Shown here: positions 45,150 through 61,220 of the stretch, one piece after another
How the letters are laid out: the number at the start of each line of letters is the position of its first letter
Numbering within the stretch: position 1 is the stretch's first letter
Origin: Mycetocola spongiae
GTDB lineage: Bacteria > Actinomycetota > Actinomycetes > Actinomycetales > Microbacteriaceae
Direction of reading: 5' to 3'
Assembly: GCF_020424085.1 (NCBI RefSeq)
Contig: NZ_CP080203.1
Span: 310,001-374,000, forward strand
DNA length: 64,000 nt
Notes under the pieces: generated by a model
What the model saw: only the letters and a program-made list of their open reading frames with translations
Database searches by the model: none
What the model was told of the DNA's origin: nothing
Position numbers and translations under genes: made by a program

Positions 45150-45263
45150 CCGTAGGAGTCGGCTGGCCCGCCGACCGGAGCGGTGTTCCGGTTGCGCCAC
45201 GCGCCCGCGCGAATAGGCCCCGGCGGCGGCAAAGTCAAGCTACCCCCGGGGGAGTACATATCA

Positions 45264-45350
45264 TACGCTATGTATCGCGGGGTGCTAATCCGGTGCCGTC
45301 GAGACGTTTTATGCAAGAGCCCTCATCGCGGAAGGCAGTCACATATGATG
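45264..45350 (+). promoter_or_regulatory. Candidate promoter and start region of the DUF11-repeat protein
   Basis: TACGCT (45264-45269) is a -10 candidate; GGAAGG (45330-45335) is the ribosome site 9 nt before ATG 45345 (a second ATG follows directly). A near-palindrome around CCCCCGGGGG (45243-45252) lies about 12 nt upstream of the -10 and could be an operator. Confidence 0.35.
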
Positions 45351-48300
45351 GGTAATTTTTCCGGCCCCCCGAGCGCCTCGGTGGCTCGAATACTCCCCGA
45401 GAAGCGCGGGAGAACGCTCCTGGCCCTCCTGCTGGCCCTTGTGCTCCTGATTCCCGCGGGCGCGGCACTCGGGGGACTCCTGAGTTCCCCCGCCGCGGCA
45501 GCCCCCGCCGTGGCCCCATCGATCCCCGCCAGCGGGGATATCACGCTCCCCGCGTGTAACGGCACCACATCCACCTATCGGGGTGTGCTGAATACCCCCG
45601 GGGACATCGTTCTGCGCGGGGAGGCCGCCGAGGATCTGCGCGCGGGCCTCGCGGTTTTCCTCTTTGACGCCAAGGGCCAGATAGTTGTTCAGCCGGACGG
45701 CAGCTATGAGGGTGTGGGTGCCCGCCTCGCCTATTGTGGCGCCCAGCTAAACCCGGACACGGGATCGGTCACCGTGGACTGGCGCTTCTGCACGGACGAG
45801 GGCCTCACGGGCTGTGCCGCGCAGCCGCCCGAGAGCGTCGAGGGCAATACCAAGCTCAGCGAGGAGCAGGAGGAGGCCATCGCGGTCCTGCTGCACGAGG
45901 GGGATACCTCCTCGAAGCGCAGCCGCACCCTGCTGCAATTGCAGGTTTGGTGTGTGACCGAATACGGCACGACCTACGATGGTGTGACCATCCAGCCCGG
46001 AAACGTGGAGCGCCGCGCGCAGGACTACTTTAATAATAATCTTTTTGCGGGCGGCAATAGCCCCGAAAACGCACGCATCAACGATGCCGAGGCCACGTGT
46101 GAGGAGTGGGCAGTTGCGCCCGATAGCCCCACGCTGGAGGTCACCTCCCTCAACTCGCCGCTGACCGCCGGAGAGGTGGCCCGCTTCTCGGTGCTGCCCA
46201 ATTTCACCGGCGACGTGCGCCTCTCCGCCTCCCGCGGTCTTGCCGTGGCGCTGTGCCCCGGAAACCAAAACCACGTGCAGCTGCGCGGTTCGATCCTGGA
46301 CTTCAGCCAGCCACGCGCCGCCCTGATCTGTATCACCTCGGACCTGGGCGGAGACATCACCCTGAGCGCCTTTGGTGATGATATTCCCGTCTCGGGGGGC
46401 CTCACCTATCTCTGGAATGGCAACCCCGGATGTCAGGTCTTCGCCGATTATGCACTCGGTCGCACCGAGAGCACCTCGGATCGTGCGCGCGCCGCGGTGC
46501 GCGTTCCCGCCCCCGGGCTGGAACTGGGGAAGACCTCGGTGCCCGCAAGCGGATCCGATGTGAACCCCGGCACCGTGATCGGCTATACCCTGACCGCCAG
46601 CAATACGGGGGAGGTCCTCCTGGAGGACGTGCTCCTGAGTGATAACCTGCGTGGCCTGAACGAGTTTGTGGAATATAACAACGACGCGGCGGCCACGATT
46701 AACGGGCAGGACCCGGCCGGCGAGCTGGACATGGACTTCGCCGCGGGCACCGCGACCTGGACGGGTACGCTCGCCCCGGGCGAGACCGTCACGATCACCT
46801 ATTCGGTCACCGTGGCCGATAACGCGGTGGGGCAGCTCCTGGAAAACCGCGTCTCGGGCAGCGCACATCCCCCGGGATATCCGCCGCTGAACCCGCCCGA
46901 TCAGGAGACCGAACACCCGGTACCCACCCCCGGATTCTCTCTCTCGAAGGTCTCCAATCCGCCCGAGTACACCACGGTGAGTCCCGGCGATGAGATCGCC
47001 TATCTGGTGACCGGCGTGAATACCGGACAGACGGTACTGGACCCCGTGGTCATCACCGATGACCTCTCCGATGTGCTGCCGCATGCCACCTTTATCGAGG
47101 GATCCGCCACCGCACGCATCGACGGCCGGCCCGCCGCCGATCCCGAACTCCGCGGCACCCAGCTGGTCTGGGAGGGCGTGCTGGAGGCGGGTGAGACGGT
47201 AGTGATCGGGTATAGCGTTCGGGTGAAGCCCGAGGCCGCCGGGGTGACCATCCGAAACGTGGTGACCGGGCAGGGCACCCCGCCCGGGGGCGACCCGATA
47301 ATCCCGCCCGAGACCGATACCGAACATCCGGTACCCACCCCCGGTTTTGTGACCACCAAGGTGGCCGATCCCGGGAGCGGGGACACGGTGAACCCGGGCG
47401 ACGTGATCGTCTATACCGTGACCGGCGAAAATACCGGAGAGACCCTCCTGGACCCCGTGAAACTCACGGATGACCTGACCGGCCTGAACGGGCTCGCACG
47501 CTATAACGGGGATGCCTTCGCCACGATTAACGGGGTGGACCCCGCCGGAACATTCGGCTTTGATTTTGCCGCGGGGGAGGCCTCCTGGTCGGGGGCACTC
47601 GCCGAGGGCGAAACGGTCACGATCACCTATTCGGTCACGGTGCGCGATACGGCCGTGGGACAGACCCTGCGCAACCGCGTCACCGGCGAGGCCACCCCGC
47701 CGGGTGCCCCGCCGATTAAGCCGCCGCCCGGGGATACCGAGCATCCGGTACCCACCCCCGGGTTCTCCACGGCCAAGAGCGCGGACCCCGCCTCGGGCAC
47801 CGAGGTCCACCCCGGGGATAACATCGAATACGCGGTCACGGGTAATAACACCGGAGAGACCGTGCTTGACCCGGTGATTCTGACCGATGATCTCGGCGGG
47901 GTACTCGATTTTGCCCGCTATAACGGCGATGTTTTTGCCACCATCAACGGGACCGACCCGGCCGGGGACATCGAGATCGACGCGGATGCGCGTATCGCCA
48001 CCTGGACCGGTGTTTTGCAGCCGGGCGAAACGGTCACGATCACCTATTCGGTGACCGTCTCCGCGGGGGCGGCGGGCGAGCTCCTGCAGAACCGCCTGAC
48101 CGGGGCCGCAACACCCCCGGGCGGGGATCCCCTGATCCCTCCGGGCACGGAAACCGAACACCCCGTGCCGACCCCCGGCTTTGAGCTGATCAAGGGATCC
48201 GCTCCGGCCAGCGGCAGCACCGTAAAACCCGGAGACGTGATCACCTATACGCTCACGGGCGAGAATACCGGTGAAACGGTACTCGACCCGGTGCTGATCA

Positions 48301-48761
48301 GCGATGACCTCTCCGGGGTGCTGCCCTATGCCACGCTCGTGGAGGATTCGCCGGCCGCCCGCGTGGACGGCGAGCCCGTGAACGATCCCGAGCTGCGCGA
48401 GGAACTCCTGGTCTGGGAGGGCAGCCTCGAGAGCGGGCAGATCGTCGTCATCGAATATCAGGTGCTGGTCCAGGCCTCGGCCGTGGGGCACACCCTGAAA
48501 AATGTGGTGCTCGGTGAGGCCACCCCGCCCGGCGGCGAGCCGATCACCCCGCCGGAATCCGGAACCGAGCACCCCGGCCCGCCGCCCGTGGCCGATCCTC
48601 CGGTACCGGAAACCGTGGTGCCCCCGCGTCCGCAACCGGGGCTCGGCGAGACCGGCCTCGGCGGGGGCTGGATGGCGGCCCTGCCCGCCGCGCTCCTGGC
48701 CATTGCGCTGGGTTACGGCCTCCTGCGCACCGCACGCCGGCGGGATGAGGTATCGGGCTAG
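45345..48761 (+). CDS. Large cell-surface protein with five DUF11-type repeats
   Basis: About 1138 residues, secreted and probably wall- or membrane-anchored. Signal peptide about 22-52 (RTLLALLLALVLLIPAGAAL, then AAAAPA). A unique N-terminal region (about 55-385) with cysteines is followed by five repeats of about 135-140 residues (near 390-525, 526-664, 665-803, 804-941 and 942-1075), each built on PGDxIxYxVTGxNTGETxLDPVxxxDDL and ending in PPxxxTEHPVPTPGF linkers. This is the DUF11/isopeptide-type beta-sandwich common in actinobacterial adhesins. The C-terminus has a sortase-like LGETG (near 1099), a hydrophobic segment and RTARRR. Start ATG 45345; the frame opens earlier but without a signal. 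Role: probably a surface stalk or adhesin. Confidence 0.85.
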   Translation: MMGNFSGPPSASVARILPEKRGRTLLALLLALVLLIPAGAALGGLLSSPAAAAPAVAPSIPASGDITLPACNGTTSTYRGVLNTPGDIVLRGEAAEDLRAGLAVFLFDAKGQIVVQPDGSYEGVGARLAYCGAQLNPDTGSVTVDWRFCTDEGLTGCAAQPPESVEGNTKLSEEQEEAIAVLLHEGDTSSKRSRTLLQLQVWCVTEYGTTYDGVTIQPGNVERRAQDYFNNNLFAGGNSPENARINDAEATCEEWAVAPDSPTLEVTSLNSPLTAGEVARFSVLPNFTGDVRLSASRGLAVALCPGNQNHVQLRGSILDFSQPRAALICITSDLGGDITLSAFGDDIPVSGGLTYLWNGNPGCQVFADYALGRTESTSDRARAAVRVPAPGLELGKTSVPASGSDVNPGTVIGYTLTASNTGEVLLEDVLLSDNLRGLNEFVEYNNDAAATINGQDPAGELDMDFAAGTATWTGTLAPGETVTITYSVTVADNAVGQLLENRVSGSAHPPGYPPLNPPDQETEHPVPTPGFSLSKVSNPPEYTTVSPGDEIAYLVTGVNTGQTVLDPVVITDDLSDVLPHATFIEGSATARIDGRPAADPELRGTQLVWEGVLEAGETVVIGYSVRVKPEAAGVTIRNVVTGQGTPPGGDPIIPPETDTEHPVPTPGFVTTKVADPGSGDTVNPGDVIVYTVTGENTGETLLDPVKLTDDLTGLNGLARYNGDAFATINGVDPAGTFGFDFAAGEASWSGALAEGETVTITYSVTVRDTAVGQTLRNRVTGEATPPGAPPIKPPPGDTEHPVPTPGFSTAKSADPASGTEVHPGDNIEYAVTGNNTGETVLDPVILTDDLGGVLDFARYNGDVFATINGTDPAGDIEIDADARIATWTGVLQPGETVTITYSVTVSAGAAGELLQNRLTGAATPPGGDPLIPPGTETEHPVPTPGFELIKGSAPASGSTVKPGDVITYTLTGENTGETVLDPVLISDDLSGVLPYATLVEDSPAARVDGEPVNDPELREELLVWEGSLESGQIVVIEYQVLVQASAVGHTLKNVVLGEATPPGGEPITPPESGTEHPGPPPVADPPVPETVVPPRPQPGLGETGLGGGWMAALPAALLAIALGYGLLRTARRRDEVSG

Positions 48762-48856: not shown

Positions 48857-51001
48857 CTAGCCGCGGAAGTGCGCGCGCAGCGCCGCGAGCTCCTGCTCAC
48901 CGAGGCCGTGCGCGAGCAGATACGCCCAGGTGGAGCCATAGTCGCGGCGCACCTGGGCGAGCGTGTCCACGATATATTCGGCGGGGGAGGCGAGCAGGTG
49001 ATCGCGCATATCCTCGGGGATCAGCACCCCACCAAAATGGGCCTGCACCTCCTCGGCAAAGGGCTGTCCCAGCCGCTGTGCGGACTCGGCATAACTCGCG
49101 ATCACATCCTCATCGCAGACACCCACCGCGGAGAGCAGCAGCGCGATAAACACCCCGGTGCGGTCCTTGCCCGCGGTGCAGTGCACCAGCACGGTTCCGT
49201 CACCCGCGGCGAGAATCTCGCGGATACCCGCCACGATATCCGCGCCGCGGTGCTCGATGATCTCCCGATAGATCGCGGGCAGGCTCGGGAGCGTGCCGGA
49301 ACCGGCGCCGGGCTCGTGTAGGGGCAGCGAGACCAGCGTGGGCCCAAAGCTCGGATCGGGCGCGGCGGAGGACTCGGCCCGGCCGCGCAGATCGATGATT
49401 GTGCACACGCCCTGGGCGAGCAGCGCGTCCCTGCCCGCGGGCTCCAGCGCGTGCAGGCCCGCGGTGCGCAGCAGGGCACCATCGCGCACGGTTCCGCCCT
49501 CGGTCAGCCGCAGACCACCGACGCCGCGGGCATTACGCACACCCTGCACCGTGATCCCCGCATGGTCTCCCGTGGCGGGGGCTCCCGTGGAGCCCGCGGC
49601 CACGGCGGGCACGGAACCCCGGCGAATGACCTCGCGGAACCAGTGGAACGAGTCCTTGGGGGTGCGCTTCAGCGTGTGGGCATCCACATGGATCAGGCCA
49701 AAGCGGTGCGTGAACCCGGCCATCCACTGCAGATTATCGATGCTGGACCACGCGTGATAACCGCGCACCCGCGCGCCATCGGTGATGGCCTGGGCCAGCT
49801 CGGCAAGCGCCCAGCCGAGGAAATCGATGCGCTCGCTATCGTGCACAATGCCGTCCTCGCCCGGCAGATCCGCGCCGCCCACCCCGTTCTCGGTGATGAT
49901 GATATCGGGGTGCTCGGGATAGGTGGCCGCGAGCCAGTCCAGCATGCGCCGGAAACCACCCGGGGTGAGCTGGCGGTGCGCCCCGCCCCAGCGCGCGCCC
50001 GGGGTGGGCACCACGGCAAAGCCCAGCGGGGCCGTGGCCCGGGCCAGGCCGAGCATCGCGGCGCCGCGCTCGGGAACACCAAACGCATGGGTGTCCGCGC
50101 GCTCGGGGGAGGATGCCGCATACTGCGAATACCAGTTCAGGCCAAATATATCCAGCGGTTGCGCGATGGTCTCCAGGTCGCCCTCGTGGATCGCGTCACC
50201 CAGCACCGCGGCAACCTCGGGCAGATGGCCGCGCCCAAAGAGCGGGTCCAGGAAGAGGCGGCTCTCAAAATACTCGGCCCGCTCGGCGGCGCGCAGATCC
50301 TCCGGATGCTCGGTCGCGGGCACCACGCCGCCGAGGCTCAGGATGCTGCCGATCTCCCCGGATACGCCCGCGGCGCGCAGCGCCTGTACCGAGCGGCCGT
50401 GGGCCAGCAGCAGGTGGTGCGCGGCCAGCAGGCCGCCGCGCACACCCTCCGTGCGATAGGGCGGCAGGCCGCCCGCCAGATAGCCGCCGAGGGTGGGGTT
50501 CACGGGCTCGTTGAGCGTATACCACTGCGCCACGCGGTCACCCAGGCGCTCGCCCAGATGCCCGGCATATTCCGCAAAACGGTCGGCAAAATCGCGCGTG
50601 AGCATTCCGCCCAGGTCCTCCATCCACTGCGGGGTATCCCAGTGGAATAGGCAGAGCGCGGGGTCGATGCCGCGGGTCAGGAGCGCGTCCACGACCCGGT
50701 CATAATGATCCAGCCCGGCGGGGTTGACGGTGCCCGCGGCATCCACCACGATCCGCGGCCAGGACGTGGAAAAACGGTGTGCGGTGCCGCCCAGCTCGCG
50801 CAGCAGATCAAAATCCTCCTCGAAGCAGTGATACTGGTCGATCGCGCGATCGCCCGTGCTGCCATCCGGGGTGACCAGCGTGCTGTGCATCGCGGTATCC
50901 CAGATCGAGGGGACCTTGCCCTCGGCATCCCAGGCCCCCTCAACCTGATACGCGGAGGTGGCCGATCCCCAGACGAAGCCCTGCGGGAATAGATGAGTCA
51001 T
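48857..51001 (-). CDS. Fusion protein: GH1 beta-glucosidase + tyrosine-phosphatase-like domain
   Basis: 714 residues in one uninterrupted frame. Residues 1-465 are a complete GH1 glycosidase: FPQGFVWGSATSAYQVEGAW at the start, acid/base Glu165 in TLNEP, nucleophile Glu371 in ITENG, and the aglycone-side motif DNLQWMAGFTHRFGL near 423-435. A Ala/Gly/Thr linker (about 466-482) joins a Y_phosphatase3-type domain (483-714) with VRNARGVGGL, the DLRG motif near 537 and the active loop HCTAGKDRTG (Cys608, Arg614). Both catalytic sets are intact, and no signal peptide is present, so it acts in the cytoplasm. It is the last gene of the ABC importer operon and overlaps the preceding ATPase by 4 nt. Substrates unknown; a glycoside imported by the transporter is likely for the first domain. 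Confidence 0.9.
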   Translation of the reverse strand: MTHLFPQGFVWGSATSAYQVEGAWDAEGKVPSIWDTAMHSTLVTPDGSTGDRAIDQYHCFEEDFDLLRELGGTAHRFSTSWPRIVVDAAGTVNPAGLDHYDRVVDALLTRGIDPALCLFHWDTPQWMEDLGGMLTRDFADRFAEYAGHLGERLGDRVAQWYTLNEPVNPTLGGYLAGGLPPYRTEGVRGGLLAAHHLLLAHGRSVQALRAAGVSGEIGSILSLGGVVPATEHPEDLRAAERAEYFESRLFLDPLFGRGHLPEVAAVLGDAIHEGDLETIAQPLDIFGLNWYSQYAASSPERADTHAFGVPERGAAMLGLARATAPLGFAVVPTPGARWGGAHRQLTPGGFRRMLDWLAATYPEHPDIIITENGVGGADLPGEDGIVHDSERIDFLGWALAELAQAITDGARVRGYHAWSSIDNLQWMAGFTHRFGLIHVDAHTLKRTPKDSFHWFREVIRRGSVPAVAAGSTGAPATGDHAGITVQGVRNARGVGGLRLTEGGTVRDGALLRTAGLHALEPAGRDALLAQGVCTIIDLRGRAESSAAPDPSFGPTLVSLPLHEPGAGSGTLPSLPAIYREIIEHRGADIVAGIREILAAGDGTVLVHCTAGKDRTGVFIALLLSAVGVCDEDVIASYAESAQRLGQPFAEEVQAHFGGVLIPEDMRDHLLASPAEYIVDTLAQVRRDYGSTWAYLLAHGLGEQELAALRAHFRG

Positions 51002-51771
51002 GATGCTGACCTTTCGGAAACGGAGGGGGACTCGGCGCGCGGCAGGCGGGGTGCCGCCGCGAGGAGTTCCCGGGTATAGGGGTGGTTGGGGTGGGAAATA
51101 ACGCTCTCGGTGGGGCCGTGCTCCACGATGCGGCCCTCGCTTAACACGCAGACCTCCTCGGAGATCATCCGCACCACCGCGAGGTCATGGGTCACAAAAA
51201 GCATGCTCAGGCCGGTATCCTCGCGCAGATCGGCAAAGAGGTTGAGGACGCGCGCCTGCACCGAAACATCCAGCGAGGACACCGGCTCATCACAGAGCAA
51301 CAGTTGCGGCTCGGCCGCGAGGGCGCGCGCGATGGCCACGCGCTGGGCCTGGCCGCCGGAGAGATTGCCGGGCTTCACCTCGCCAAAACGCACGGGGTCC
51401 AGGCCCACCCGGTCGAGCAGCTCGCGTGCAGCCTCGCGCCGCGCGGCCCGCGGCACGCCGCCGCGGATGGCCTGCGGCTCGGCCACAATATCCACGACCC
51501 GGCGGTGCGGGTTAAGCGAGGAGATCGGGTCCTGGAAGATCATCTGCACGGGATGCGGGGAGCCGTCCTCGGCGAGGGTGATGCTGCCCGAGCGCGGGGT
51601 ATGCAGGCCCAGGACGGTGCGGGCGAGGGTGGATTTACCCGAGCCTGACTCGCCCACGAGGCCCACGCAGCCGCCGCGCGGCACCGTGAGGCTCACGCCG
51701 TGCAGCACGGTGCGATCGCCATAGCCCACCACCAGATCGCGCACGTCCAGGGCGGGGGTATCGGGGCTCAT
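50998..51771 (-). CDS. ABC transporter ATP-binding protein (OppF/DppF type)
   Basis: 257 residues. Walker [13 protein letters not shown]-loop MIFQDPISSLNPHRR, signature LSGGQAQRVAIARALA, Walker B LLLCDEPVSSLDV, switch His VTHDLA. The SSLNP and HPYTRELLAA motifs mark the peptide/glycan family-5 importer group. The usual OppF C-terminal cysteine motif is absent. It overlaps both neighbours by 4 nt, so the operon is translationally coupled throughout. It is the second ATPase of the heterodimer. Confidence 0.93.
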   Translation of the reverse strand: MSPDTPALDVRDLVVGYGDRTVLHGVSLTVPRGGCVGLVGESGSGKSTLARTVLGLHTPRSGSITLAEDGSPHPVQMIFQDPISSLNPHRRVVDIVAEPQAIRGGVPRAARREAARELLDRVGLDPVRFGEVKPGNLSGGQAQRVAIARALAAEPQLLLCDEPVSSLDVSVQARVLNLFADLREDTGLSMLFVTHDLAVVRMISEEVCVLSEGRIVEHGPTESVISHPNHPYTRELLAAAPRLPRAESPSVSERSAS

Positions 51772-52619
51772 GACTGGGTTCCTTCCGAGGGGGTGCGCAG
51801 GCGGCGCGGGCGCGGCCCGTCCAGGCGCGGGATCGCATCGATCAGCGAGCGGGTATAGGGATGGGCGGGGTGGGTCAGGAGGCGGGCCGCGGGCCCAGCC
51901 TCCACCACGCGTCCAGCGCGCATCACGATCAGGTCATCGCAGCGCTCGGCGGCCACACCCAGGTCGTGGGTGATCAGCAGCAGGCTGGCCCCGGTGCGGG
52001 CGCGCATTTCGTCGATCAGATCCAGGACGCGCTTTTGCACCGTGACATCCAGCGCGGTGGTGGGTTCATCGCCGATCAGCAGCGCGGGCTCGTTGAGCGT
52101 GGCCGCGGCAATCCCGATCCGCTGGCGCTGACCGCCCGAGAGCTCATGCGGGAAGCGGCGCGATTCGCGTTCGGGATCCCGGAAACCCACGGCGGACATT
52201 GCCGCGATGGCCCGGGCGCGCAGCCGCGAGCGCGGCGGCGGGTTTTTCCGGAACGTGAGCGATTCGGTGAGCTGCGTGCCCACCCGATAGGTGGGGTTCA
52301 GGGAACGCAGCGGGTCCTGATGGATCATGCCCACGCTCTCGCGCAGCACGCGCCGCCGCGCGCGGTCGCCGGCGGAGACCATATCCACGCCCGCGATCAG
52401 GGCGCTGCCCGAGACGCGCGCGTCCACGCCCGGGGCGTGCAGGCCCAGCAGCGAGCGGATCAGCATGGATTTTCCGGCGCCGGATTCGCCCACCACGGCG
52501 AGGGAGCGGCCCGGGGCCAGGTCAAAGGAGACGTCCTCCACCACGGTGCGTTCGCCCTCGCGGCCGTGGATCACGGTGGCCAGACCACGCACGCTCAGGA
52601 CGGGGGCGGGAATATTCAT
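51768..52619 (-). CDS. ABC transporter ATP-binding protein (OppD/DppD type)
   Basis: 283 residues. Walker A GESGAGKSMLI, MIHQDPLRSLNPTYRVG, signature LSGGQRQRIGIAAATL, Walker B LLIGDEPTTALDV, switch His ITHDLG, and HPAHPYTRSLIDAIPRL near the end. The first ATPase of the pair. It overlaps the permease upstream and the second ATPase downstream by 4 nt each. Confidence 0.93.
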   Translation of the reverse strand: MNIPAPVLSVRGLATVIHGREGERTVVEDVSFDLAPGRSLAVVGESGAGKSMLIRSLLGLHAPGVDARVSGSALIAGVDMVSAGDRARRRVLRESVGMIHQDPLRSLNPTYRVGTQLTESLTFRKNPPPRSRLRARAIAAMSAVGFRDPERESRRFPHELSGGQRQRIGIAAATLNEPALLIGDEPTTALDVTVQKRVLDLIDEMRARTGASLLLITHDLGVAAERCDDLIVMRAGRVVEAGPAARLLTHPAHPYTRSLIDAIPRLDGPRPRRLRTPSEGTQS

Positions 52620-53464
52620 CGGCTTGCCTCTCGGAAGTGCTCACCGAGCACGTTGACACACAGGATGGTGGAGCAGATCATCAGCGCGGGAAAAAGCGTG
52701 AGCCAGGGCGCGGTGGTGAGTTCGGCGCGGCCCTGCGCGATCAGCGCACCCCAGGAGGGCTCGGGCGGGCGCACACCAAATCCCAGGAAGCTCAGCGCAC
52801 CCTCCGCCACGATGGCCCCGGCGATCGTGGTCATCAGCACGGGCATCATCATCGGAATCACCCCGGGCAGGACCTCGCGGGTGAGGATCCGCCAGCGGCT
52901 CGCGCCGAGGGTGCGGGCCACCAGGACATGGTTTTCGGTGGCGATGGACAGGGTCGCGGCGCGGGCGAGCCGGGCGAAGACCGGAATGGTGAACGCCGAG
53001 ATGATCAGCGCAATCGTGAGGATCGAGGGCCCGGCGAGGGTCACCACGGTCGAGACGATGATCAGCGAGGGCAGCGCGATGGTGACATCGGTCAGGAAGC
53101 CCACGGCCGCCTCCACCACCCCGCGCATCAGGCCCGCGAGCACCCCGAGCAGGATTCCGATCCCGCCGCCGAGGATCACCGTCATCAGCGCCACAAAACC
53201 GCTGGCCCCGGCGCCATGCAGCGAGCGGGAGAGAATATCCCGGCCCAGGCTATCGGTGCCAAAGGGATGGGCGAGGCTGGGCGCCTGGTTCAGCGCGGCA
53301 TAGTCATTGGCCAGCGGGTCGGCCCCCGCCCCGAGCAGCGCGGCGATGGTCGCGAGGGCCAGAAGGATAAGCCAGCCCGAGGCGAGATAGAGGCCGAGTC
53401 GGGGGACCCGCGGCCGGGGCCGGCGCGCGGGGGCCGCGGCGAGGGTGAGTTCAGGGGCGGACAC
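52616..53464 (-). CDS. ABC transporter permease (DppC type)
   Basis: 282 residues with an Arg/Pro-rich cytoplasmic start and about six membrane segments. HPFGTDSLGRDILSRSLHGA is the DppC/OppC N-terminal signature; the EAA loop is HVLVARTLGASRWRILTREVLP near residue 185; FLGFGVRPPEPSWGALIAQGR is typical of the second half. It overlaps the first permease by 14 nt. Confidence 0.93.
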   Translation of the reverse strand: MSAPELTLAAAPARRPRPRVPRLGLYLASGWLILLALATIAALLGAGADPLANDYAALNQAPSLAHPFGTDSLGRDILSRSLHGAGASGFVALMTVILGGGIGILLGVLAGLMRGVVEAAVGFLTDVTIALPSLIIVSTVVTLAGPSILTIALIISAFTIPVFARLARAATLSIATENHVLVARTLGASRWRILTREVLPGVIPMMMPVLMTTIAGAIVAEGALSFLGFGVRPPEPSWGALIAQGRAELTTAPWLTLFPALMICSTILCVNVLGEHFREASR

Positions 53465-54401
53465 GGGCGGTTCTCCGATCGATGAGGGTGAGGCTGATAT
53501 CGGTCAGGATTCCGGCGATGACCACGATGATGGCGGAGAAAAACACCACTCCCTGGATCAGCGGGAGATCCCGGGAGCCGAGTGCGCCCACCGTGAGGCG
53601 GCCGAGGCCGGGCAGGGCAAAGAGCTGCTCCACGAGGAGCGATCCGCCCAGCGCCGTGGCGATCGTGATGCCGAGCATGGCCACAAGCGTGGGGGAGGCG
53701 GGGCGCAGGATGCGCCGCCAGAGCAGGTCACGATCGCTCGCGCCGCGCACCAGGGTGGCATAGGCATAGGGAGAGCGCACCGCCTCGATTGCGGAACCGC
53801 GCAGCGCCCGGGTATAAACCGCGGCCTCCGCGATCCCGAGGGTCAGCGCGGGCAGGATCATCCGGCGCAGATTTTCCAGCGGGCTCTCCCCGAAGGGCAC
53901 AAACCCGGTTGCGGGCAGCCAGCCGAGGTTCACGGCGAAGAGATAAATGAGCAGGACACCCACCACAAAGGACGGGATGGCCAGCGTGATGAAGGTGGCA
54001 CCCGAGACCACGCGGTCAAACGTGCCGTTGACCCGGCGGGCGCTGGCCAGCGCCAGCGGGATGATGATTGCGAGGGCCAGGATCTGGCTCAGCAGCACCA
54101 GCTCAAATGTCACGGGGAGGCGCTCGATGATCTCGGTGAGCACGGGCCGCCCCGAGGTAAAGGACGTGCCCCAGTCTCCCGTGAGGATCCCGCGCATCCA
54201 GTCGAAGAAGCGCACGGGGAAACTCTGATCCAGGCCCAGCGTGCGGCGCAGTTCCGCGCGCTGGGCCTCGCTGGACTCTGGGCCCAGCAGGATGAGTGCC
54301 GGGTCGCCGGGCATCAGGAACGCCAGTTGGCAGGTGAGGGCCGCGATGACGATCAGCACCCCGAGGGAGCGCAGCAGCCGCGGCAACCCGGCGCGGATCA
54401 C
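53451..54401 (-). CDS. ABC transporter permease (DppB type)
   Basis: 316 residues, about six membrane segments. Typical DppB features: FLMPGDPALILLG near residue 28, GDWGTSFTSGRPVLTEI, and the EAA loop YAYATLVRGASDRDLLWRRILRPA near residue 220. GTG start overlapping the binding-protein stop in GTGA. Confidence 0.92.
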   Translation of the reverse strand: MIRAGLPRLLRSLGVLIVIAALTCQLAFLMPGDPALILLGPESSEAQRAELRRTLGLDQSFPVRFFDWMRGILTGDWGTSFTSGRPVLTEIIERLPVTFELVLLSQILALAIIIPLALASARRVNGTFDRVVSGATFITLAIPSFVVGVLLIYLFAVNLGWLPATGFVPFGESPLENLRRMILPALTLGIAEAAVYTRALRGSAIEAVRSPYAYATLVRGASDRDLLWRRILRPASPTLVAMLGITIATALGGSLLVEQLFALPGLGRLTVGALGSRDLPLIQGVVFFSAIIVVIAGILTDISLTLIDRRTARVRP

Positions 54402-55948
54402 TTCCCGGCCTCGGACCAGCCGATTCCGGCGGGCTGCACGGAGATCAGCGAATAGCCGGCGAGGTCGGGCATGCCCGCCACGCCCGCCTTGGCGATGAAG
54501 CCGGCGTTATTGGCGGTGAGCCACAGCGTGGGCAGGGCCGCGGCGAGGTTCTGTGCCACGGTGTCCAGGAGTGCGGCGCGGGCGGCCGGATCGGTCTCGG
54601 CGGCGGCCGCATCCAGTGCGGCATCGGTTGCGGGATCGGAATAGCCACCGAAGTTATACGGCGATCCGGTGCGGGCCGTGAGGCGGCCGCCCGAGGCATC
54701 GGCATAGATCGAGGTGACAAAATCCACGGCCTGGAAATCGTGGGCACCCAGCATCGACCCAAATTCGGCGGGGTCCACGGGCTTCAGCGTGACGGTCACG
54801 CCCACCTCGGCGAGCATATCCTTGAGCACGGTTCCGCGCTGCACGGTCTCGGTGCGGTTATTCACGGTGAGCTCAAATGCGAGGTTGCGGCCCTCCAGGA
54901 CCTTTTTCGCGGCGTCCACATCATAGGTGGCGTAGCCGATGCTCGGGGCCAGATCGCCCAGCAGCGCATAGGGGTTATCCACGGGGGTGCCCTCGCCGAG
55001 GTTGATCACGGTATTCACGGCATCGCGGTCGATGGCCTGGGCGAGCGCCTCGCGCACCTCCAGATCGGCAAAGGCAGGGTCCTGCAGGTTGAGGATGATG
55101 GAGCTCATCGCGGCGGGTGCGGCGTGAACGGCGAGCGAGGAGTCATCGCGGGCCTGCTTAAACTGGCTGGTGACCTCGGTCCACATCAGGTCCACGTCAC
55201 CTGCCTGCAGGCTCTGCAGGCGGGATTCGGCATCGGGCATCATACGGTAGGTGATCGAGTCCAGATAGGCGGGCTCGGAGCCGCCATAGTTTTCGCTGCG
55301 GGTCACGGTGAGGGAGTCGCCTCCCACAAACTTCTCCACGCGATAGGCGCCGGCTCCCAGCGGGAAGCCAAAGGCATCCTGGGCGGTGGTGGAGGTGATC
55401 ATGCCGAGGGCGCGGGCGAACTGGGCGTTAAAATCGGCGTTGGGGCTCTTCAACGTGAGCACGAGCACGGTATCTCCCTGCACGTCCATGCCCTCGATCT
55501 GCCCGGTCTGGGCGGCGGCAGCGGATTTGGTGGCGGGATCGTTGAGGCGCTCCAGGTGCAGGCGCACGGAGTCGGCGGTGAGCGGGCTGCCATCGGAGAA
55601 GGTCAGGCCCTCGGGCAGCGTGATGGTCCAGACGCTGCCGGCGGCATCGGAGGTCACGGAGGTGGCCAGTCCCGGGACCACGGTGCCGCCCGGGCCGGGC
55701 TTAAGCAGCGGCTCGTAGAGCGCATTGGCCACGATAAACAGCGGCTGCTGGGCGAGTGCGCCGGCGGCGGGGTCGAGGCTCGGGACCTCGCGGTCGAGGC
55801 CCACCGCGAGGGTGCCGCCCTCGGTCGGGGTCGTCGGTGCGGTCGCGCCGGGCGCCGCCTCTCCTGCGGGGGTGCTACACGCCGAGAGCGTGAGGGCACC
55901 GATGACGGCTACGGCGGCGAGGCCGCGTGTGGCCCAATTGCGAGACAT
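54398..55948 (-). CDS. ABC transporter substrate-binding lipoprotein (family 5)
   Basis: 516 residues. Signal AAVAVIGALTLSAC with lipobox, then a Pro/Thr/Glu linker (PAGEAAPGATAPTTPTEGG) and the SBP_bac_5 fold (LYEPLLKPGPGGTVVPGLATS, LTFSDGSPLTADSV). ATG 55948 has AGGAGG 5 nt upstream; the frame extends to 56008 without a signal. The fold binds peptides in most cases but also beta-glucosides, nickel or opines; the GH1 gene in this operon favours a glycoside-containing ligand. It is distinct from the two binding proteins at 24706-28389. Confidence 0.92.
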   Translation of the reverse strand: MSRNWATRGLAAVAVIGALTLSACSTPAGEAAPGATAPTTPTEGGTLAVGLDREVPSLDPAAGALAQQPLFIVANALYEPLLKPGPGGTVVPGLATSVTSDAAGSVWTITLPEGLTFSDGSPLTADSVRLHLERLNDPATKSAAAAQTGQIEGMDVQGDTVLVLTLKSPNADFNAQFARALGMITSTTAQDAFGFPLGAGAYRVEKFVGGDSLTVTRSENYGGSEPAYLDSITYRMMPDAESRLQSLQAGDVDLMWTEVTSQFKQARDDSSLAVHAAPAAMSSIILNLQDPAFADLEVREALAQAIDRDAVNTVINLGEGTPVDNPYALLGDLAPSIGYATYDVDAAKKVLEGRNLAFELTVNNRTETVQRGTVLKDMLAEVGVTVTLKPVDPAEFGSMLGAHDFQAVDFVTSIYADASGGRLTARTGSPYNFGGYSDPATDAALDAAAAETDPAARAALLDTVAQNLAAALPTLWLTANNAGFIAKAGVAGMPDLAGYSLISVQPAGIGWSEAGK

Positions 55949-56015
55949 GGATCCTCCTGGTTCGTGGCGGCCGTGCGCCGGCCACGTCATGAAAGCTACG
56001 GAGCACACATGAATC

Positions 56016-56132: not shown

Positions 56133-56756
56133 ATGAGCACTGCCCCCGACCCGCTGCGGCCCCCCGCGCCGATACCGGAAGCGCCGCGCAGCCGCGAGGA
56201 TCAGAAGCTGCGCACGGGCGCGCTGATCCGCGCCGCCGCCCTGGACCTCATCGAGGAGGTGGGCTTTGAGCGCGCGTCCATCGACGAGATTGCCGCGCGC
56301 GCCGGCGTTGGACGACGCACGTTTTTCCGCTATTTCCCGTGCAAGGAGGCCGTGCTTTTTGAGGGCACCGTACTGCCGGGCATCCCGCAGAATATCGACG
56401 CCTGCCTGGCCCGCGGGGAGTCCCCGCTGCACGCGGCATTCTCCTCGCTGCGCGGCAGCATCGCCTATCCCACGCCGCCCACCCAACGCGATGTCAGGCG
56501 GCGTCGGCTGCGCCTCTCGCTGCTCTCGGTGCCCTCGGTGAGCGCCTATTACCGCACTGCAATCGCCGAGTTGGCGCGCGAAATCACCGAGACGGTGCGC
56601 CGCCATCCGCAACACGCTGCCGTGCCGATGCTCCCCGAAATCACGGGTGGGCTGATCCAGATTGTGCTCCTGGAGCACGTGGACAGCGGCGAGATCGCGC
56701 ACCTGCGGGTGGATGAGGCGGTCTGGCGGCGGGCGCTGACCGCCGCGCTCGGCTAG
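56133..56756 (+). CDS. TetR family transcriptional regulator
   Basis: 207 residues. The N-terminal TetR helix-turn-helix is clear (LIRAAALDLIEEVGFERASIDEIAARAGVGRRTFFRYFPCKEAVLF, residues about 30-75, quoted in pieces: ASIDEIAARAGVG and RRTFFRYFPCKE). The C-terminal ligand domain is not assignable; it has an RRRRLRLSLLSVPSV segment like MftR-type regulators. Divergent from the importer operon, with the palindrome in between, so probably its local repressor. Confidence 0.9.
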   Translation: MSTAPDPLRPPAPIPEAPRSREDQKLRTGALIRAAALDLIEEVGFERASIDEIAARAGVGRRTFFRYFPCKEAVLFEGTVLPGIPQNIDACLARGESPLHAAFSSLRGSIAYPTPPTQRDVRRRRLRLSLLSVPSVSAYYRTAIAELAREITETVRRHPQHAAVPMLPEITGGLIQIVLLEHVDSGEIAHLRVDEAVWRRALTAALG

Positions 56757-56789: not shown

Positions 56790-57689
56790 CTAGGTATCCA
56801 GGCCCTCGGCGGTCTCGGCCCGCGCCAGCTTGAGGACGCCGTAAAACGCGATTGCCCCGGCAAAAACCAGGATAAAAATCGACCAGATCGGGGCGCCCGC
56901 CGCCTCCTGCAAGATCGTAATCCCCAGCAGCACGGCCACCGCGGGGTCCACGATGGTGAGCCCGGCGATCACCACGTCCGGCGAATTGCAGGTATGCGAG
57001 TACTGCACATAGTAGATCGAGAGCGCCGAGGCGATACTGATGCCCACGATGCACACCACGGTGAGCCAGTTCTCGGAGGCCGAACCCACGTTATGCCCGC
57101 GCAGGAGGTCCTCCACGCGCAGGATCACGGTCTTGCCCAGGGTCGCGATAAAGCCCGAGTAGATGCCGCCGAGCAGCACATACATGATCGGGCGCGGGCT
57201 GGACTTTTTCCCCGCGATCCAGAGCGCAAGCGAGACGAGCAGCATCGCGGTTAATACGCTCAGGATCGCGATCAGCTGGCCGTCGCCGATGGACTTCTGC
57301 TTCCCCACCATCGAGGCAACAACCACGTAGAGAATCACGCCGCCGAGGATGATGATGATCGCGTTTTTGATCTCGGGGGAGAGCTTTTTCTTCGAGATGC
57401 GGGTGGTGAAGATCACCGTAAATACCAGGGCCGCGACGCCCAGGGGCTGCACCAGGATCAGCGGCGCGAGCGCGAGGCTGCCCATCTGCAGGATGATCGC
57501 GAGCCCAATCAGGACGGTTCCGCCGCGCCAGGTGCGCACCCGGAGGAGTTTCATCACGGGCGAGCCGCCGCCCTTTTCCTCGGCGGCGAGCCGCACCCCG
57601 CGGCTCTGCCCCAGGTTTCCGAGGGCAAGAATGGCGGCGGAGAGCAGGGCCAGGAGCACTCCGAGGGCGGGGAGGGAACCAGTAAACAC
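56790..57689 (-). CDS. DMT/NIPA-like transporter
   Basis: 299 residues with nine to ten membrane segments in two halves. LALLSAAILALGNLGQSRGVRLAAEE at the start and LAPLILVQPLGVAALVFTVI are typical of the NIPA-like branch of the drug/metabolite transporter superfamily, some of which carry magnesium. The substrate is not predictable. GTG 57689 with AAAGGA upstream. Same strand as the hydrolase upstream, behind a hairpin, so transcription may be separate. Confidence 0.85.
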   Translation of the reverse strand: MFTGSLPALGVLLALLSAAILALGNLGQSRGVRLAAEEKGGGSPVMKLLRVRTWRGGTVLIGLAIILQMGSLALAPLILVQPLGVAALVFTVIFTTRISKKKLSPEIKNAIIIILGGVILYVVVASMVGKQKSIGDGQLIAILSVLTAMLLVSLALWIAGKKSSPRPIMYVLLGGIYSGFIATLGKTVILRVEDLLRGHNVGSASENWLTVVCIVGISIASALSIYYVQYSHTCNSPDVVIAGLTIVDPAVAVLLGITILQEAAGAPIWSIFILVFAGAIAFYGVLKLARAETAEGLDT

Positions 57690-57764
57690 GGGGAGTCCTT
57701 TGCGAGTGGATGCCGTTCGGCGCGGGCCGAACGGGGTGGGGGCGGGCTATCCGCCGATAATAGG

Positions 57765-57797
57765 CGTATGGGCGCCCCGCTGCGGGACGCCCATACG
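57765..57797 (-). terminator. Hairpin after the choloylglycine-hydrolase-type gene
   Basis: CGTATGGGCG and CGCCCATACG close a stem of about 15 bp with one internal mismatch (CCCGC/GCGGG in the top part), 9 nt after the stop of the hydrolase gene. T-rich sequence following on the minus strand is poor. Confidence 0.55.
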
Positions 57798-57805
57798 GTA
57801 TTGCG

Positions 57806-58885
57806 TTATTTCTTTTTGCCCACCATCTGCTGGACCTTCTTCTGGATGATCTTAAACTCATCCTGCATATTGGCCACGCGCTCCAGCGCGGTCAGGCCGG
57901 CCGCGAGTGCGTCCGTGGTCAGCTCGTCCACCGCGGCGAATTTGCGGCTCACGTTGCCGGCGAGGCCACCCTCGAGGGCCAGCTCGCTCACCAGGTCCAG
58001 CTTCAGAACCTTGCTGCCCTCGGAGAAGCTCACGTCGTTCAGATCCACCCAGACGATGCCTGGGCGGGTCGTGGACTCAAATACATAGAGCTTATTGGTG
58101 AGGTCCAGCACCACCTGCCAGATGGTCTGCGAGGCATCGGGCTTGCCCTCCTCGGGGGTGCGGAACGGCTGGGCCGCGTTGCGGATGATGCTGAACATCG
58201 CCGCGATGGCCTCCAGCTGGGTCTTGGGCTGCACCTGGTGGTCCACATAATAGGACGCGCGGGCGAAGCGATCGCTCGCGAGGGTCGAGCCGGGGAGGGG
58301 CTTATCGCCGCCCAGGCCCTGGATCTCCTTCACCAGTTCCAGCTGCTTATCGTAGGTGGGGGAGTTGGTCATGACGCGGTAGTCGCGGCTGTGATACACG
58401 GTGGGCTTGCCATCGGTATATTCGATGATTGCCGAATCGCCCGAGGCGTCGTTAATCGCGAGGTGCAGCGTGGGAACCAGGTGACCGGTGGGGTCAAATA
58501 GCTGCGCAATCTGCACCTGGGTCTTATTGGTCCACTCCACGGCCTCGGCGACGGTGGCGAAGTTATCCAGGTAGTACTGGAGCCAGACGGCCTGGCTCAG
58601 CTGCACGTCCGAGGGGGCGGGCTTGCCATAATCGGACTCGGCGAGCCAGAGGATATGTCCCGCGAAGCCCTCCTCGTTCACGCCATCGCAAGCCACCAGG
58701 TCAAAGGCGGTGGCGACGATGCTGCCGTATTTTGCGGTCCAGGTGAGGTCTCCGTTCACCCCGTCGGCACGCTCGATGCCGCGCGGGAACTTCCAGAGGT
58801 TGGTGAGGAGATCCATGTGGAAATCCATGTTTCTTCCCACAATGACCGATCCATTGGCGTCGGGCCAGACAACTCGTGTACACAT
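57806..58885 (-). CDS. Choloylglycine hydrolase family protein (linear amide C-N hydrolase)
   Basis: 359-residue Ntn-hydrolase of the bile-salt hydrolase/penicillin V acylase family. The start is fixed by chemistry: MCTR places Cys at position 2, the nucleophile exposed after Met removal. Arg18 and Asp21 in the VGRNMDF segment match the catalytic Arg and Asp of characterised members. An Asn in VMTNSPTYDKQ and an Arg in LASDRFARASYY fit the remaining catalytic positions. Cytoplasmic, no signal peptide. Substrates may be conjugated bile salts, penicillin V or acyl-homoserine lactones; sequence alone cannot decide. Next to glutamate decarboxylase on the same strand. Confidence 0.9.
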   Translation of the reverse strand: MCTRVVWPDANGSVIVGRNMDFHMDLLTNLWKFPRGIERADGVNGDLTWTAKYGSIVATAFDLVACDGVNEEGFAGHILWLAESDYGKPAPSDVQLSQAVWLQYYLDNFATVAEAVEWTNKTQVQIAQLFDPTGHLVPTLHLAINDASGDSAIIEYTDGKPTVYHSRDYRVMTNSPTYDKQLELVKEIQGLGGDKPLPGSTLASDRFARASYYVDHQVQPKTQLEAIAAMFSIIRNAAQPFRTPEEGKPDASQTIWQVVLDLTNKLYVFESTTRPGIVWVDLNDVSFSEGSKVLKLDLVSELALEGGLAGNVSRKFAAVDELTTDALAAGLTALERVANMQDEFKIIQKKVQQMVGKKK

Positions 58886-58977
58886 GGCGTTACGTCCTTT
58901 CGTAGTGAAGCAATTGCGATTGAATGACACTGCTGCGAGGGGCCTGCTGCTCGCCGCCTCGGGTCCGCCCCGCGGTT

Positions 58978-59664
58978 CTAGGGAGTGACGGTTGTGCGGC
59001 GGGGAAGCGCGATCGCGGAGCCGGCAAAAAAGCACAGCGCCCCGATAAACGTTCCCCAGTTGGCCAGGGCGAGGTCCTTGGCCGATCCATCGGGAAGCAC
59101 AAACGCCCCGATGGCCGAGAATCCAAATGCCAGGCAGCCGATCATATTGATATGGGCCCCCCACCATCCGGAGCTTGAGGGATCCCAGAGCGTGCCCTCG
59201 GATCGGAGGAAGGCCACATAGACAAATACGGCGCTGGCCAAAAAGGCCACCGACCCGCCCGCATCGGGTGTCCATACCAGGCGGTCCTCGGCATGCGCCG
59301 TCTTGGCGGTGAGCGCCGCGCTGGTGCTCACGTTAAAGAGGATCGTGCCGATGGTTTGGATGGCCGCGGCCAGCCAGACCGCGCGAAACATCTTGCCGGT
59401 GCCGTAGCTCACCCGGGTTGTGGCATCACCACTGAGGATGAGCTGCATGAGGCCCGCCGCGGTGAAAAACCAGGCCCCAAAAAAACACAGCAGGTTGGTG
59501 ATATTGGAGTTATTGCTATCCAGCATCCCGATCAGGGTCCCCACGGCAAACAGGGCCGAGCCGATCATAAACGACCAGCTCTGCTTGCTCAGCGTGGGCA
59601 CCAGGGCGGGCACTCGCTCGCGATCGGGCGCTGAGCCCGATGCTGCTAGCGGGGAGTTATTCAT
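58978..59664 (-). CDS. Hypothetical six-segment membrane protein (YrhK-like pattern)
   Basis: 228 residues with hydrophobic segments near 30-48, 55-78, 90-112, 133-152, 165-188 and 198-218. The WSFMIGSALFAVGTLIG and CFFGAWFFTAAGLMQLIL segments resemble YrhK-domain proteins, but I am not certain of the family. It sits between glutamate decarboxylase and the choloylglycine-hydrolase-type gene with gaps of about 90 nt on each side, so a functional link with acid or membrane stress is plausible. It is not a GadC antiporter (too short, wrong pattern). Confidence 0.6.
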   Translation of the reverse strand: MNNSPLAASGSAPDRERVPALVPTLSKQSWSFMIGSALFAVGTLIGMLDSNNSNITNLLCFFGAWFFTAAGLMQLILSGDATTRVSYGTGKMFRAVWLAAAIQTIGTILFNVSTSAALTAKTAHAEDRLVWTPDAGGSVAFLASAVFVYVAFLRSEGTLWDPSSSGWWGAHINMIGCLAFGFSAIGAFVLPDGSAKDLALANWGTFIGALCFFAGSAIALPRRTTVTP

Positions 59665-59710
59665 GCGGGTCTTTCGGTTGGTCTGGGCAAGCGGGTTGCC
59701 GGGGTGGGGC

Positions 59711-59736
59711 GGAGGGGCGCCGGAGCGCGCCCCTCC
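59711..59736 (-). terminator. GC-rich hairpin after glutamate decarboxylase
   Basis: GGAGGGGCGC (59711-59720) pairs perfectly with GCGCCCCTCC (59727-59736), loop of 6. It lies 15 nt after the gadB stop, with no T tract. Confidence 0.5.
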
Positions 59737-59750
59737 GCGGCCGCGCGAGC

Positions 59751-61151
59751 CTAGTGCGCGAAGGTGTGGCGCTTCTTTTCGCGCGGGATCGGGGCGTCCA
59801 GGTTTTCCAGGAACTCCACCTCTTCCTTCAGCGCGTCCAGGAGCAGGGCCGCGAGGTCCTGGCTTAGGCCCAGGCGGACCACGATGCGCTGGACCACCAT
59901 ATTGCTGAGGTCATCGGGCATCGGATAGGCCGGGACGAGCCAGCCGCGCATGCGCAGCCGGTCGGCCAGGTCGTAGAGGTCCCAGTTGCGGTGGGCCTTG
60001 GTCATCCGCCACGCAAATACGGGGATCGTATCTCCGCGGCTGACCAGCTCAAACGGTGCCATTGCGCCGATTGCGGAGGACAGATAGGTGGCCACATCGA
60101 TCGAGCCCTGCTGCACCATGCGGTAGCCCTCGCGGCCGAGGCGGAGGAACTGGTAGTACTGCAGGAGGACCTGCGAGCCGGGGCGCGAGAAGTTCAGCGC
60201 GAGGGTGGGCATATCGCCACCCAGATAGCTCACGTGGAAGATCAGGCTCTCGGGGCACACGGCCTTGGTGCGCCAGACAACCCAGCCCACACCGGGATAG
60301 ACCAGGCCGTATTTATGCCCGGAGGTGCTGATCGAGTTCACGCGCTTGACCTTGAAGTCCCACTCCAGATCGGGCTGGCAGAACGGGGCGACCATTCCGC
60401 CCGAGGCGCCGTCCACGTGGATCTTCACGTCGAAGCCGGTGGCCTCCTGGATCTCGTCGAGCTTGGCGGCGATCTCCTTGACCGGCTCATAGAGACCGGT
60501 ATAGGTCTGGCCGAGGATGGCGACCACACCGATGGTGTTTTCGTCCACATAGTTTTCCAGCTCAAAGCCGTCCAGGACCAGGTGGTCCTCGGTCACGGGC
60601 ACATAGCGCGCCTCGACGTCCCAGTAGTTGCAGAACTTCTCCCAGACCACCTGAACGCCGGCGGAGAGGATGAGGTTGGGCTTTTCGGTGCTCTTGCCCT
60701 CGGCGCGGCGACGCTCCTGCCACAGGCGCTTCAGCGCGAGCCCGCCGAGCATACAGGCCTCGGAGGAGCCGATCGTGGAGGTACCGATGGTATCCGCGGG
60801 GTCCGGTACGTTCCAGAGATCCGCGATCATCCGCCAGCAGCGATCCTCGATGGTCGCGGTGGCCGGATACTCGTCCTTATCGATCATGTTCTTATCGGCG
60901 CTCTCGGCATAGAGCTTCTGCGCGTTATCGTCCATCCAGGTGGAGACAAACGTCGCGAGGTTCAGGCGGGAGTTGCCGTCCAGCATCGCCTCATCGTGCA
61001 CGATCTGATACGCGGTATCGCCGGACATCATATTCTGCGGGATCGAGAACTTGGGCAGGCTGGTCGCCTCCCCGGGCTGCGCAAAAACGGGAGAGATCTG
61101 AAGCTCATCCGAGGACGGCTTCTCTACTGCGTTTCGGTACATTTCAGACAT
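59751..61151 (-). CDS. gadB: Glutamate decarboxylase
   Basis: PLP-dependent enzyme converting glutamate to GABA with proton consumption; 466 residues, the size of bacterial GadA/B. The PLP lysine is in SISTSGHKYGLVYPGVGWVVWR (near residue 278, quoted as SGHKYG). IGSSEACMLGGLALKRLW and HVDGASGGMVAPFCQPDLEWDF (in pieces HVDGASGG) are typical. The C-terminus ends with KKRHTFAH; a His close to the end recalls the GadB residue that closes the active site at neutral pH, which would give pH control. ATG 61151. No antiporter gene lies in the window. Confidence 0.96.
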   Translation of the reverse strand: MSEMYRNAVEKPSSDELQISPVFAQPGEATSLPKFSIPQNMMSGDTAYQIVHDEAMLDGNSRLNLATFVSTWMDDNAQKLYAESADKNMIDKDEYPATATIEDRCWRMIADLWNVPDPADTIGTSTIGSSEACMLGGLALKRLWQERRRAEGKSTEKPNLILSAGVQVVWEKFCNYWDVEARYVPVTEDHLVLDGFELENYVDENTIGVVAILGQTYTGLYEPVKEIAAKLDEIQEATGFDVKIHVDGASGGMVAPFCQPDLEWDFKVKRVNSISTSGHKYGLVYPGVGWVVWRTKAVCPESLIFHVSYLGGDMPTLALNFSRPGSQVLLQYYQFLRLGREGYRMVQQGSIDVATYLSSAIGAMAPFELVSRGDTIPVFAWRMTKAHRNWDLYDLADRLRMRGWLVPAYPMPDDLSNMVVQRIVVRLGLSQDLAALLLDALKEEVEFLENLDAPIPREKKRHTFAH

Positions 61152-61220
61152 CGTGACTCGTTTCTTTATCGAAGGTACTGACGTGCATTATCGAGGGGTG
61201 GACGGGGGAAAATCGGGGCA

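Follow-up and report, generated by a model that had tools for sequence, protein, structure and literature searches.

What can a glycosidase and a phosphatase do together when they share one polypeptide at the end of an importer operon? The question is raised by a gene of Mycetocola spongiae, which we analyzed within a window of 64,000 nucleotides (contig NZ_CP080203.1, positions 310,001 to 374,000) and in which one frame joins a glycoside hydrolase family 1 (GH1) domain to a Y_phosphatase3 domain (Table 1). The preliminary description of this DNA had reported an unbroken frame, and the ORF list and translation confirmed a product of 714 amino acids without an internal stop. Full-length homologues were found in Leucobacter komagatae (L004), Glaciihabitans tibetensis (L005), Agreia sp. 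VKM Ac-1783 (L006), Agreia pratensis (L007), and genome G039 (L025/L029), all of them Microbacteriaceae and 59 to 78% identical to the window fusion. Three further loci (L026-L028) are repeats of L005-L007 and were counted once; the L004 row ends at 8133, and the stop of L004 lies at 8163. An assembly error or a frameshift, already doubted in the preliminary description, is thus ruled out by five further species in which a single open frame likewise encodes the fusion, and its proviso that all relatives might carry two separate genes does not apply to these five. The genome itself is a single 3.2-Mb contig. The fusion is a real, retained gene, neither chance nor artefact.

Table 1. Features of the fusion gene and its operon (coordinates are positions in the window)
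Feature	Coordinates	Strand	Basis or remark
GH1-Y_phosphatase3 fusion gene	48857..51001	-	714 codons, ATG start; ATG overlaps oppF stop (ATGA)
Y_phosphatase3 domain, residues 483-712	48866..49555	-	Pfam PF13350
P-loop HCTAGKDRTG, residues 607-616	49154..49183	-	Identical in 6/6 fusions
Linker, residues 462-482	49556..49618	-	Gap between Pfam domains
GH1 domain, residues 3-461	49619..50995	-	Pfam PF00232; Glu165 and Glu371 catalytic
Gln425 codon	49727..49729	-	Glu in canonical GH1 beta-glucosidases (FEW motif)
oppF-like ATP-binding subunit	50998..51771	-	ORF list, Pfam, NCBIfam
oppD-like ATP-binding subunit	51768..52619	-	ORF list, Pfam, NCBIfam
oppC-like permease	52616..53464	-	ORF list, Pfam, NCBIfam
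oppB-like permease	53451..54401	-	ORF list, Pfam, NCBIfam
oppA-like solute-binding protein (SBP_bac_5)	54398..56008	-	Pfam; LSAC lipobox visible after Met21
Divergent TetR-family regulator	56133..56756	+	Pfam

The residues singled out in the preliminary description, Glu165 (in NEP), Glu371 (in TENG), and Cys608 and Arg614 of the P-loop, are all present, and the catalytic residues of both halves are invariant in the alignment of the six fusions. The linker measures 21 residues between the Pfam domains, and not 17 as first described; the other five fusions have 4 fewer than the window protein, and the linker is poorly conserved, its stretch 468-472 being one of three segments with a pLDDT below 50 in the structure model. 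A first model built from the six fusions alone was poor (mean pLDDT, 58.0), and a model with a 28-row alignment reached a mean pLDDT of 85.2 over the whole protein and a pTM of 0.84. No signal peptide is visible by eye at the N-terminus. We also considered whether the frame yields two proteins by an internal start and rejected this, as no ribosome-binding site common to the six fusions was seen by eye. Candidate internal starts around the junction comprise GTG (valine) codons in all six fusions and a TTG in L. komagatae; an ATG at codon 495 in the two Agreia fusions falls inside the phosphatase domain.

The N-terminal half is a GH1 member by the Pfam scan (PF00232, Glyco_hydro_1; 8.4e-124, 413.9 bits against a cut-off of 22.6, profile positions 3 to 450 of 453), and it has the two glutamates typical of the family, presumably as acid/base (Glu165) and nucleophile (Glu371). 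In a fold search, the model of this half matched the beta-glucosidase Cba3 of Cellulomonas biazotea (8znw) with a Z score of 46.4 and an rmsd of 2.1 A over 421 aligned residues, and the matches listed were GH1 structures only. The fusion shares the fold, both catalytic glutamates, and 42 to 44% identity with Cba3 (8znv/8znw), but differs from such beta-glucosidases in Gln425, in an insertion, in its NCBIfam score, and in the attached phosphatase. Indeed, the "catalytically complete beta-glucosidase" first described has to be qualified: position 425 holds Gln instead of Glu, and the score of 423.2 bits falls short of the 478.5-bit cut-off of TIGR03356 (GH1 beta-glucosidase BGL, equivalog). In GH1 enzymes, the FEW-motif Glu contacts glucose O4 and O6; the fusion lacks the Glu of the WS..DN(F/L)EW motif that marks a glucose-type -1 subsite. 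All six fusions have Gln425, whereas all five solved beta-glucosidases among the PDB alignments printed have Glu, as do four of eight GH1-bearing loci, namely, the four with a script-readable motif. This placement is by sequence alignment only, the model being unsure there (mean pLDDT of 62 for residues 421 to 430). Because of the Gln in 6/6 fusions and the missed beta-glucosidase cut-off, glucose as the glycone is not assured, and Gln425 would fit a changed glycone.

The insertion lies around residues 335 to 344 (window 49970-49999) relative to three of the five PDB alignments printed, and within it Trp338-Gly-Gly-Ala-His-Arg-Gln344 (WGGAHRQ) is invariant in the six fusions; as a speculation, its His-Arg pair could contact phosphate. 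A PF00232 profile search found no second GH1 in the genome.

Assignment as a 6-phospho-beta-glycosidase was tried and rejected: PRK13511 scored 280.6 bits against 610 and lacG 233.1 against 561.2, and four 6-phospho-beta-glucosidase models of NCBIfam were likewise under their cut-offs. Furthermore, 6-phospho-glycosidases bind phosphate by a Ser-Lys-Tyr triad, which is absent at Gln425, His432, and Phe434 of the window protein. These results bear on an alternative in which the glycosidase acts first and the phosphatase half works on its product, either an aglycone bearing phosphate or a sugar phosphate of no direct use to the cell. A Glu at position 425 would be expected to repel an anionic sugar, so that the neutral Gln may let the GH1 half take a phosphorylated or acidic glycone; the 6-phospho-glycosidase models, however, were missed by far and the triad is lacking, and the sequence gives no order of steps. 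We regard this order of events as possible though unlikely.

The C-terminal half matched PF13350 (Y_phosphatase3; 3.4e-47, profile positions 1 to 238 of 240), and its closest solved sequences are those of Mycobacterium tuberculosis PtpB (1ywf, 2.2e-15; 8dhi, 7e-12). MptpB-type phosphatases also act on phosphoproteins. The P-loop agrees with HCXXGKDR[TA]G, which excerpted passages of PMC3091653 give as the signature of MptpB-like "atypical lipid phosphatases." The preliminary description of a complete HC(x)5R tyrosine phosphatase is therefore right as to the domain and the P-loop, which are complete, but "tyrosine" names the fold and not the substrate. PF13350 and this P-loop are shared with MptpB, with Lmo1800 and Lmo1935 of Listeria, and with Pho16B, from which the fusion differs in being joined to a GH1 domain within an importer operon. 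Pho16B, a soil-metagenome enzyme with this type of P-loop, accepted 10 of 10 phosphates tested, including glucose-6-phosphate, and has a signal peptide (excerpts of PMC6409689), in contrast to the fusion, where none is visible. Two further places in the genome match the phosphatase half of the fusion query.

The same half could instead be regulatory, with the GH1 half serving an ordinary imported beta-glycoside and the phosphatase acting on a phosphoprotein, inositol lipids, or inositol phosphates, so that uptake would be coupled to signalling. MptpB-type phosphatases have phosphoinositide activity, and Actinobacteria are singled out as exceptional in their synthesis of inositols or phosphoinositides (both in excerpts of PMC3091653). 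We consider this improbable, as a Pfam scan of the six operon genes found no kinase gene (and no PTS or phosphodiesterase gene), and a regulatory role alone leaves the recurrence of the phosphatase with an importer and a GH3 glycosidase in other lineages, described below, unexplained.

The fusion is rare. Among 398 genomes drawn from the family, own genome included, it occurs in five (E <= 1e-150), L. komagatae lying outside those matches. Within the genus it is present in one of four genomes (the own), the other three having no full-length match and separate matches to GH1 and phosphatase. Only the own genome has it among 396 drawn from the order (1e-110), where G472 matches query residues 4 to 492, the GH1 half, and no record in a collection of 72,556 plasmid records covers 80% of the fusion. 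In a tree of 44 phosphatase domains the six fusions form one group (97/94), so that one fusion event suffices. A single origin, together with the poorly conserved linker, would suit a mere accident in which neighbours were joined once and the halves work alone in no common pathway. An accident is nevertheless very improbable in our estimate, given that the fusion persists among homologues as distant as 59% identity, without change in either active site, and that the matching pair of functions stands unfused beside related importers in all five such loci found.

The genes before the fusion encode an importer of the Opp/Dpp/Nik type, with a solute-binding protein, two permeases, two ATPases, and overlapping gene ends, from which we infer that oppABCDF and the fusion are one transcript. 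In the window, the fusion is last in the operon, and there as in L004, L005, L006, and L007 it is preceded by oppABCDF, the genes of the latter four being 57 to 85% identical to those of the window. The preliminary description had noted neither this operon nor the TetR and esterase-like genes treated below. Besides, a TetR gene is present in all six fusion loci (in the window, and by a tblastn match in the five others). The nearest PDB relatives of OppA include AapF, a nickel-binding protein, and AgaA, and indicate no single ligand; NCBIfam names near OppA are mostly those of nickel and peptide carriers, all under cut-off, and a search of open-licence papers for AapF found nothing. In G039 (L029), oppD, oppF, and a truncated oppC precede the fusion, oppA, oppB, and the 5' part of oppC being gone, and that genome has no OppA above 30% identity. 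There (L029 11473-16407), TetR abuts the oppC stump, and the fusion and an esterase-like gene remain open. This layout points either to a function independent of the importer or to decay in the recent past.

The esterase-like alpha/beta-hydrolase gene follows the fusion in four of the six loci (L005, L006, L007, and L029), its start overlapping the fusion stop or lying within a few bases of it. It was recognized by Pfam (Abhydrolase_3) in L007 and L029 and named in L005 and L006 by the likeness of their starts to those. No match to it was found in the window, and the only one in L004, some 4 kb further along, is weak (36% over 221 residues).

We then looked for the importer apart from the fusion. 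OppA scans matched 4 of 396 genomes drawn from the order (1e-70) and 2 of 394 drawn from the class (1e-90), own genome included in each count. The others were three genomes of one other genus (L035-L037) and a 10-Mb genome (L074), and a single plasmid record was added at 1e-50, the 1.6-Mb plasmid of Streptomyces sp. NBC_01237 (L094). All five unfused loci have in common with the fusion loci oppABCDF (OppA 37 to 41% identical), a TetR match, a Y_phosphatase3 gene, and a glycosidase gene, here of GH3. The genes of L035-L037 and L074 were assigned by Pfam and those of L094 by tblastn only, where the GH3 gene rests on a match to the L036 GH3 query (9.8e-15) and an in-frame ORF start. The order is phosphatase-oppABCDF-GH3 with a divergent TetR gene in L035-L037, and TetR-phosphatase-GH3 divergent from oppABCDF in L074 and L094. 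The five loci represent about two lineages, three from one genus and two of one layout.

These loci differ from the fusion loci in having separate genes, GH3 in place of GH1, and phosphatases of other branches, three of them with an altered P-loop. The P-loop reads ACAGGRDRTG in L035-L037 and HCAAGKDRTG in L074 and L094; judged by this sequence, the phosphatases of the former three (3/5 loci) may be weak or altered. In the 44-row tree, long branches set the phosphatases of the unfused loci apart from the fusion group, the tree neither joining nor separating the two sets with confidence; the association may be old or may have arisen in parallel. Because GH3 also includes beta-N-acetylglucosaminidases, beta-glucosides are not necessarily the substrates of the GH3 enzymes, which may also differ from the GH1 half in what they cleave.

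For a control, we took 19 of 53 family genomes with a stand-alone phosphatase (L075-L093), drawn from the better though not strictly the top 19 matches; the source was 58 phosphatase-matching family genomes, five of which have the fusion. GH1 or GH3 was found in none of the 19 neighbourhoods (tblastn at 1e-8, which a distant GH3 could escape), and another Opp-type operon lay near the phosphatase, with neither glycosidase, in two (L089 and L092). At the fusion, unfused, and control loci alike, genes were picked by a rough codon-position script, which skips some genes or misplaces their starts, and named from Pfam or tblastn. One control locus (L085 4986-11107, genome G176) has a Y_phosphatase3 gene and a calcineurin-type metallophosphoesterase gene within an ABC operon of the sugar type (SBP_bac_1), followed at some distance by a GH38 gene; this is a further hint that the Y_phosphatase3 family serves imported organophosphates.

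In the three sister genomes of the genus, the stretches fetched at the same place gave no match to the fusion, oppA, oppB, oppC, or the TetR gene; the other end of the L101 stretch has a single weak match to oppD, of ATPase type (39% over 98 residues). Beyond TetR (window 56790-63904) follow genes for a NIPA-like protein, a CBAH-type hydrolase, a PLP-dependent decarboxylase, an ABC-2 membrane protein, and an ABC ATPase, and this order is kept in the operon-less genomes, with five genes in L101 and L102 and two in L103 before the contig end. As the flank is kept and the operon absent there in all three, the block was gained in the window genome or lost in the sisters. On the other side, a 1192-codon surface-protein-like frame (45183-48761, + strand) with five stretches each of DUF7927 plus DUF7507 adjoins the operon convergently.

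Such a distribution raises the question of detoxification or self-resistance, in which a glycosylated, phosphorylated antibiotic or signal would be taken in and dismantled. The patchy spread in the family, the lack of a match at the same place in the sisters, the TetR gene, and the one unfused case on a megaplasmid would all suit it. On the other hand, resistance by import before destruction is unusual, and no biosynthetic or efflux genes are found among the operon genes, which makes this explanation quite improbable, even with the precedent of agrocin 84, which enters via AccA (excerpts of PMC4526662).

AccA belongs to the agrocinopine (acc) operon of Agrobacterium, in which an ABC importer is combined with the putative phosphodiesterase AccF and the putative phosphatase AccG for a sugar phosphodiester, and the diester is cleaved first, leaving arabinose-2-phosphate (excerpts of PMC4526662). 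The likeness to the fusion operon consists of the ABC importer, with AccA distantly related to OppA (about 45 bits), a cytoplasmic phosphatase gene, and, as we propose for the fusion operon, a phosphate-bearing sugar compound. In an acc-type operon, the binding protein recognises a pyranose phosphate. The acc order, with diester cleavage first, also lends some weight to the glycosidase-first alternative. The excerpts mention AccF and AccG and no glycosidase, whereas the fusion operon has a TetR gene and a fusion of a beta-glycosidase with an MptpB-type phosphatase; it is not acc-type, the six operon genes scanned including no phosphodiesterase and the phosphatase being fused to GH1.

Our preferred reading, to which we give a probability of roughly 0.5, is that the operon imports an organophosphate beta-glycoside, which the fusion dephosphorylates and cleaves, somewhat in the manner of the agrocinopine operon. 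The OppA lipoprotein and OppBCDF would bring in a small beta-glycoside with a phosphate group and, in some hosts, possibly an acyl group as well, and the fusion would be a cytoplasmic bifunctional catabolic enzyme. Its C-terminal MptpB-type cysteine phosphatase would take off the phosphate inside the cell, and its N-terminal GH1 retaining glycosidase would split the beta-glycoside, the products being free sugar, phosphate, and aglycone. The product of the esterase-like gene, where present, may remove the acyl group, and TetR would keep the operon repressed in the absence of the ligand and of its breakdown products. The chemistry of the two halves (retaining glycosidase and phosphomonoesterase) is assumed from family knowledge; what we infer is a common imported substrate for both, the sequence of the steps, and the role of TetR.

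This reading is supported by the recurrence of importer, phosphatase, and glycosidase together in the six fusions and in 5/5 unfused loci, as against 0/19 controls. Against it, the OppA relatives indicate no single ligand, and G039 keeps the fusion without oppA and oppB. The unfused loci, moreover, come from about two lineages, with phosphatases apart from that of the fusion and three altered P-loops, and two of the 19 controls pair an Opp-type operon and a phosphatase without GH1 or GH3. The earlier proposal that the phosphatase serves a phosphorylated sugar has thus gained ground from the importer operon and the unfused importer-phosphatase-GH3 loci, support that is contextual in kind. Cellobiose-6-phosphate, suggested there as a substrate, is not a first choice, since it is a PTS product and the operon genes scanned include no PTS gene.

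Both halves come from known families, and the novelty lies in their pairing and in the module that recurs. As the preliminary description supposed, the papers listed by full-text searches of open-licence PMC literature include no described protein with the GH1-phosphatase pair, nor a description of a glycosidase-phosphatase pair or operon, although a bare listing of the architecture elsewhere is possible. The matching parts, unfused in related operons, suggest an undescribed route for phosphate-bearing glycosides. More broadly, and more tentatively, there may be an actinobacterial module for Opp-type uptake of whole phosphorylated beta-glycosides, unmasked by a phosphatase-glycosidase pair drawn from GH1 or GH3 and perhaps assembled more than once, which the Microbacteriaceae would have fused, with a glycone pocket retuned from Glu to Gln.

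Most known glycosidases for phosphorylated sugars belong to the PTS route, in which the cell itself adds the phosphate. If our reading is true, phosphate-bearing glycosides would exist in the environment and enter cells as such via an ABC importer, and a phosphatase family discussed mainly for virulence would have a metabolic role. Taken together, the fused and the unfused sets indicate a single pathway, the substrate of which may be searched for directly with OppA as bait.
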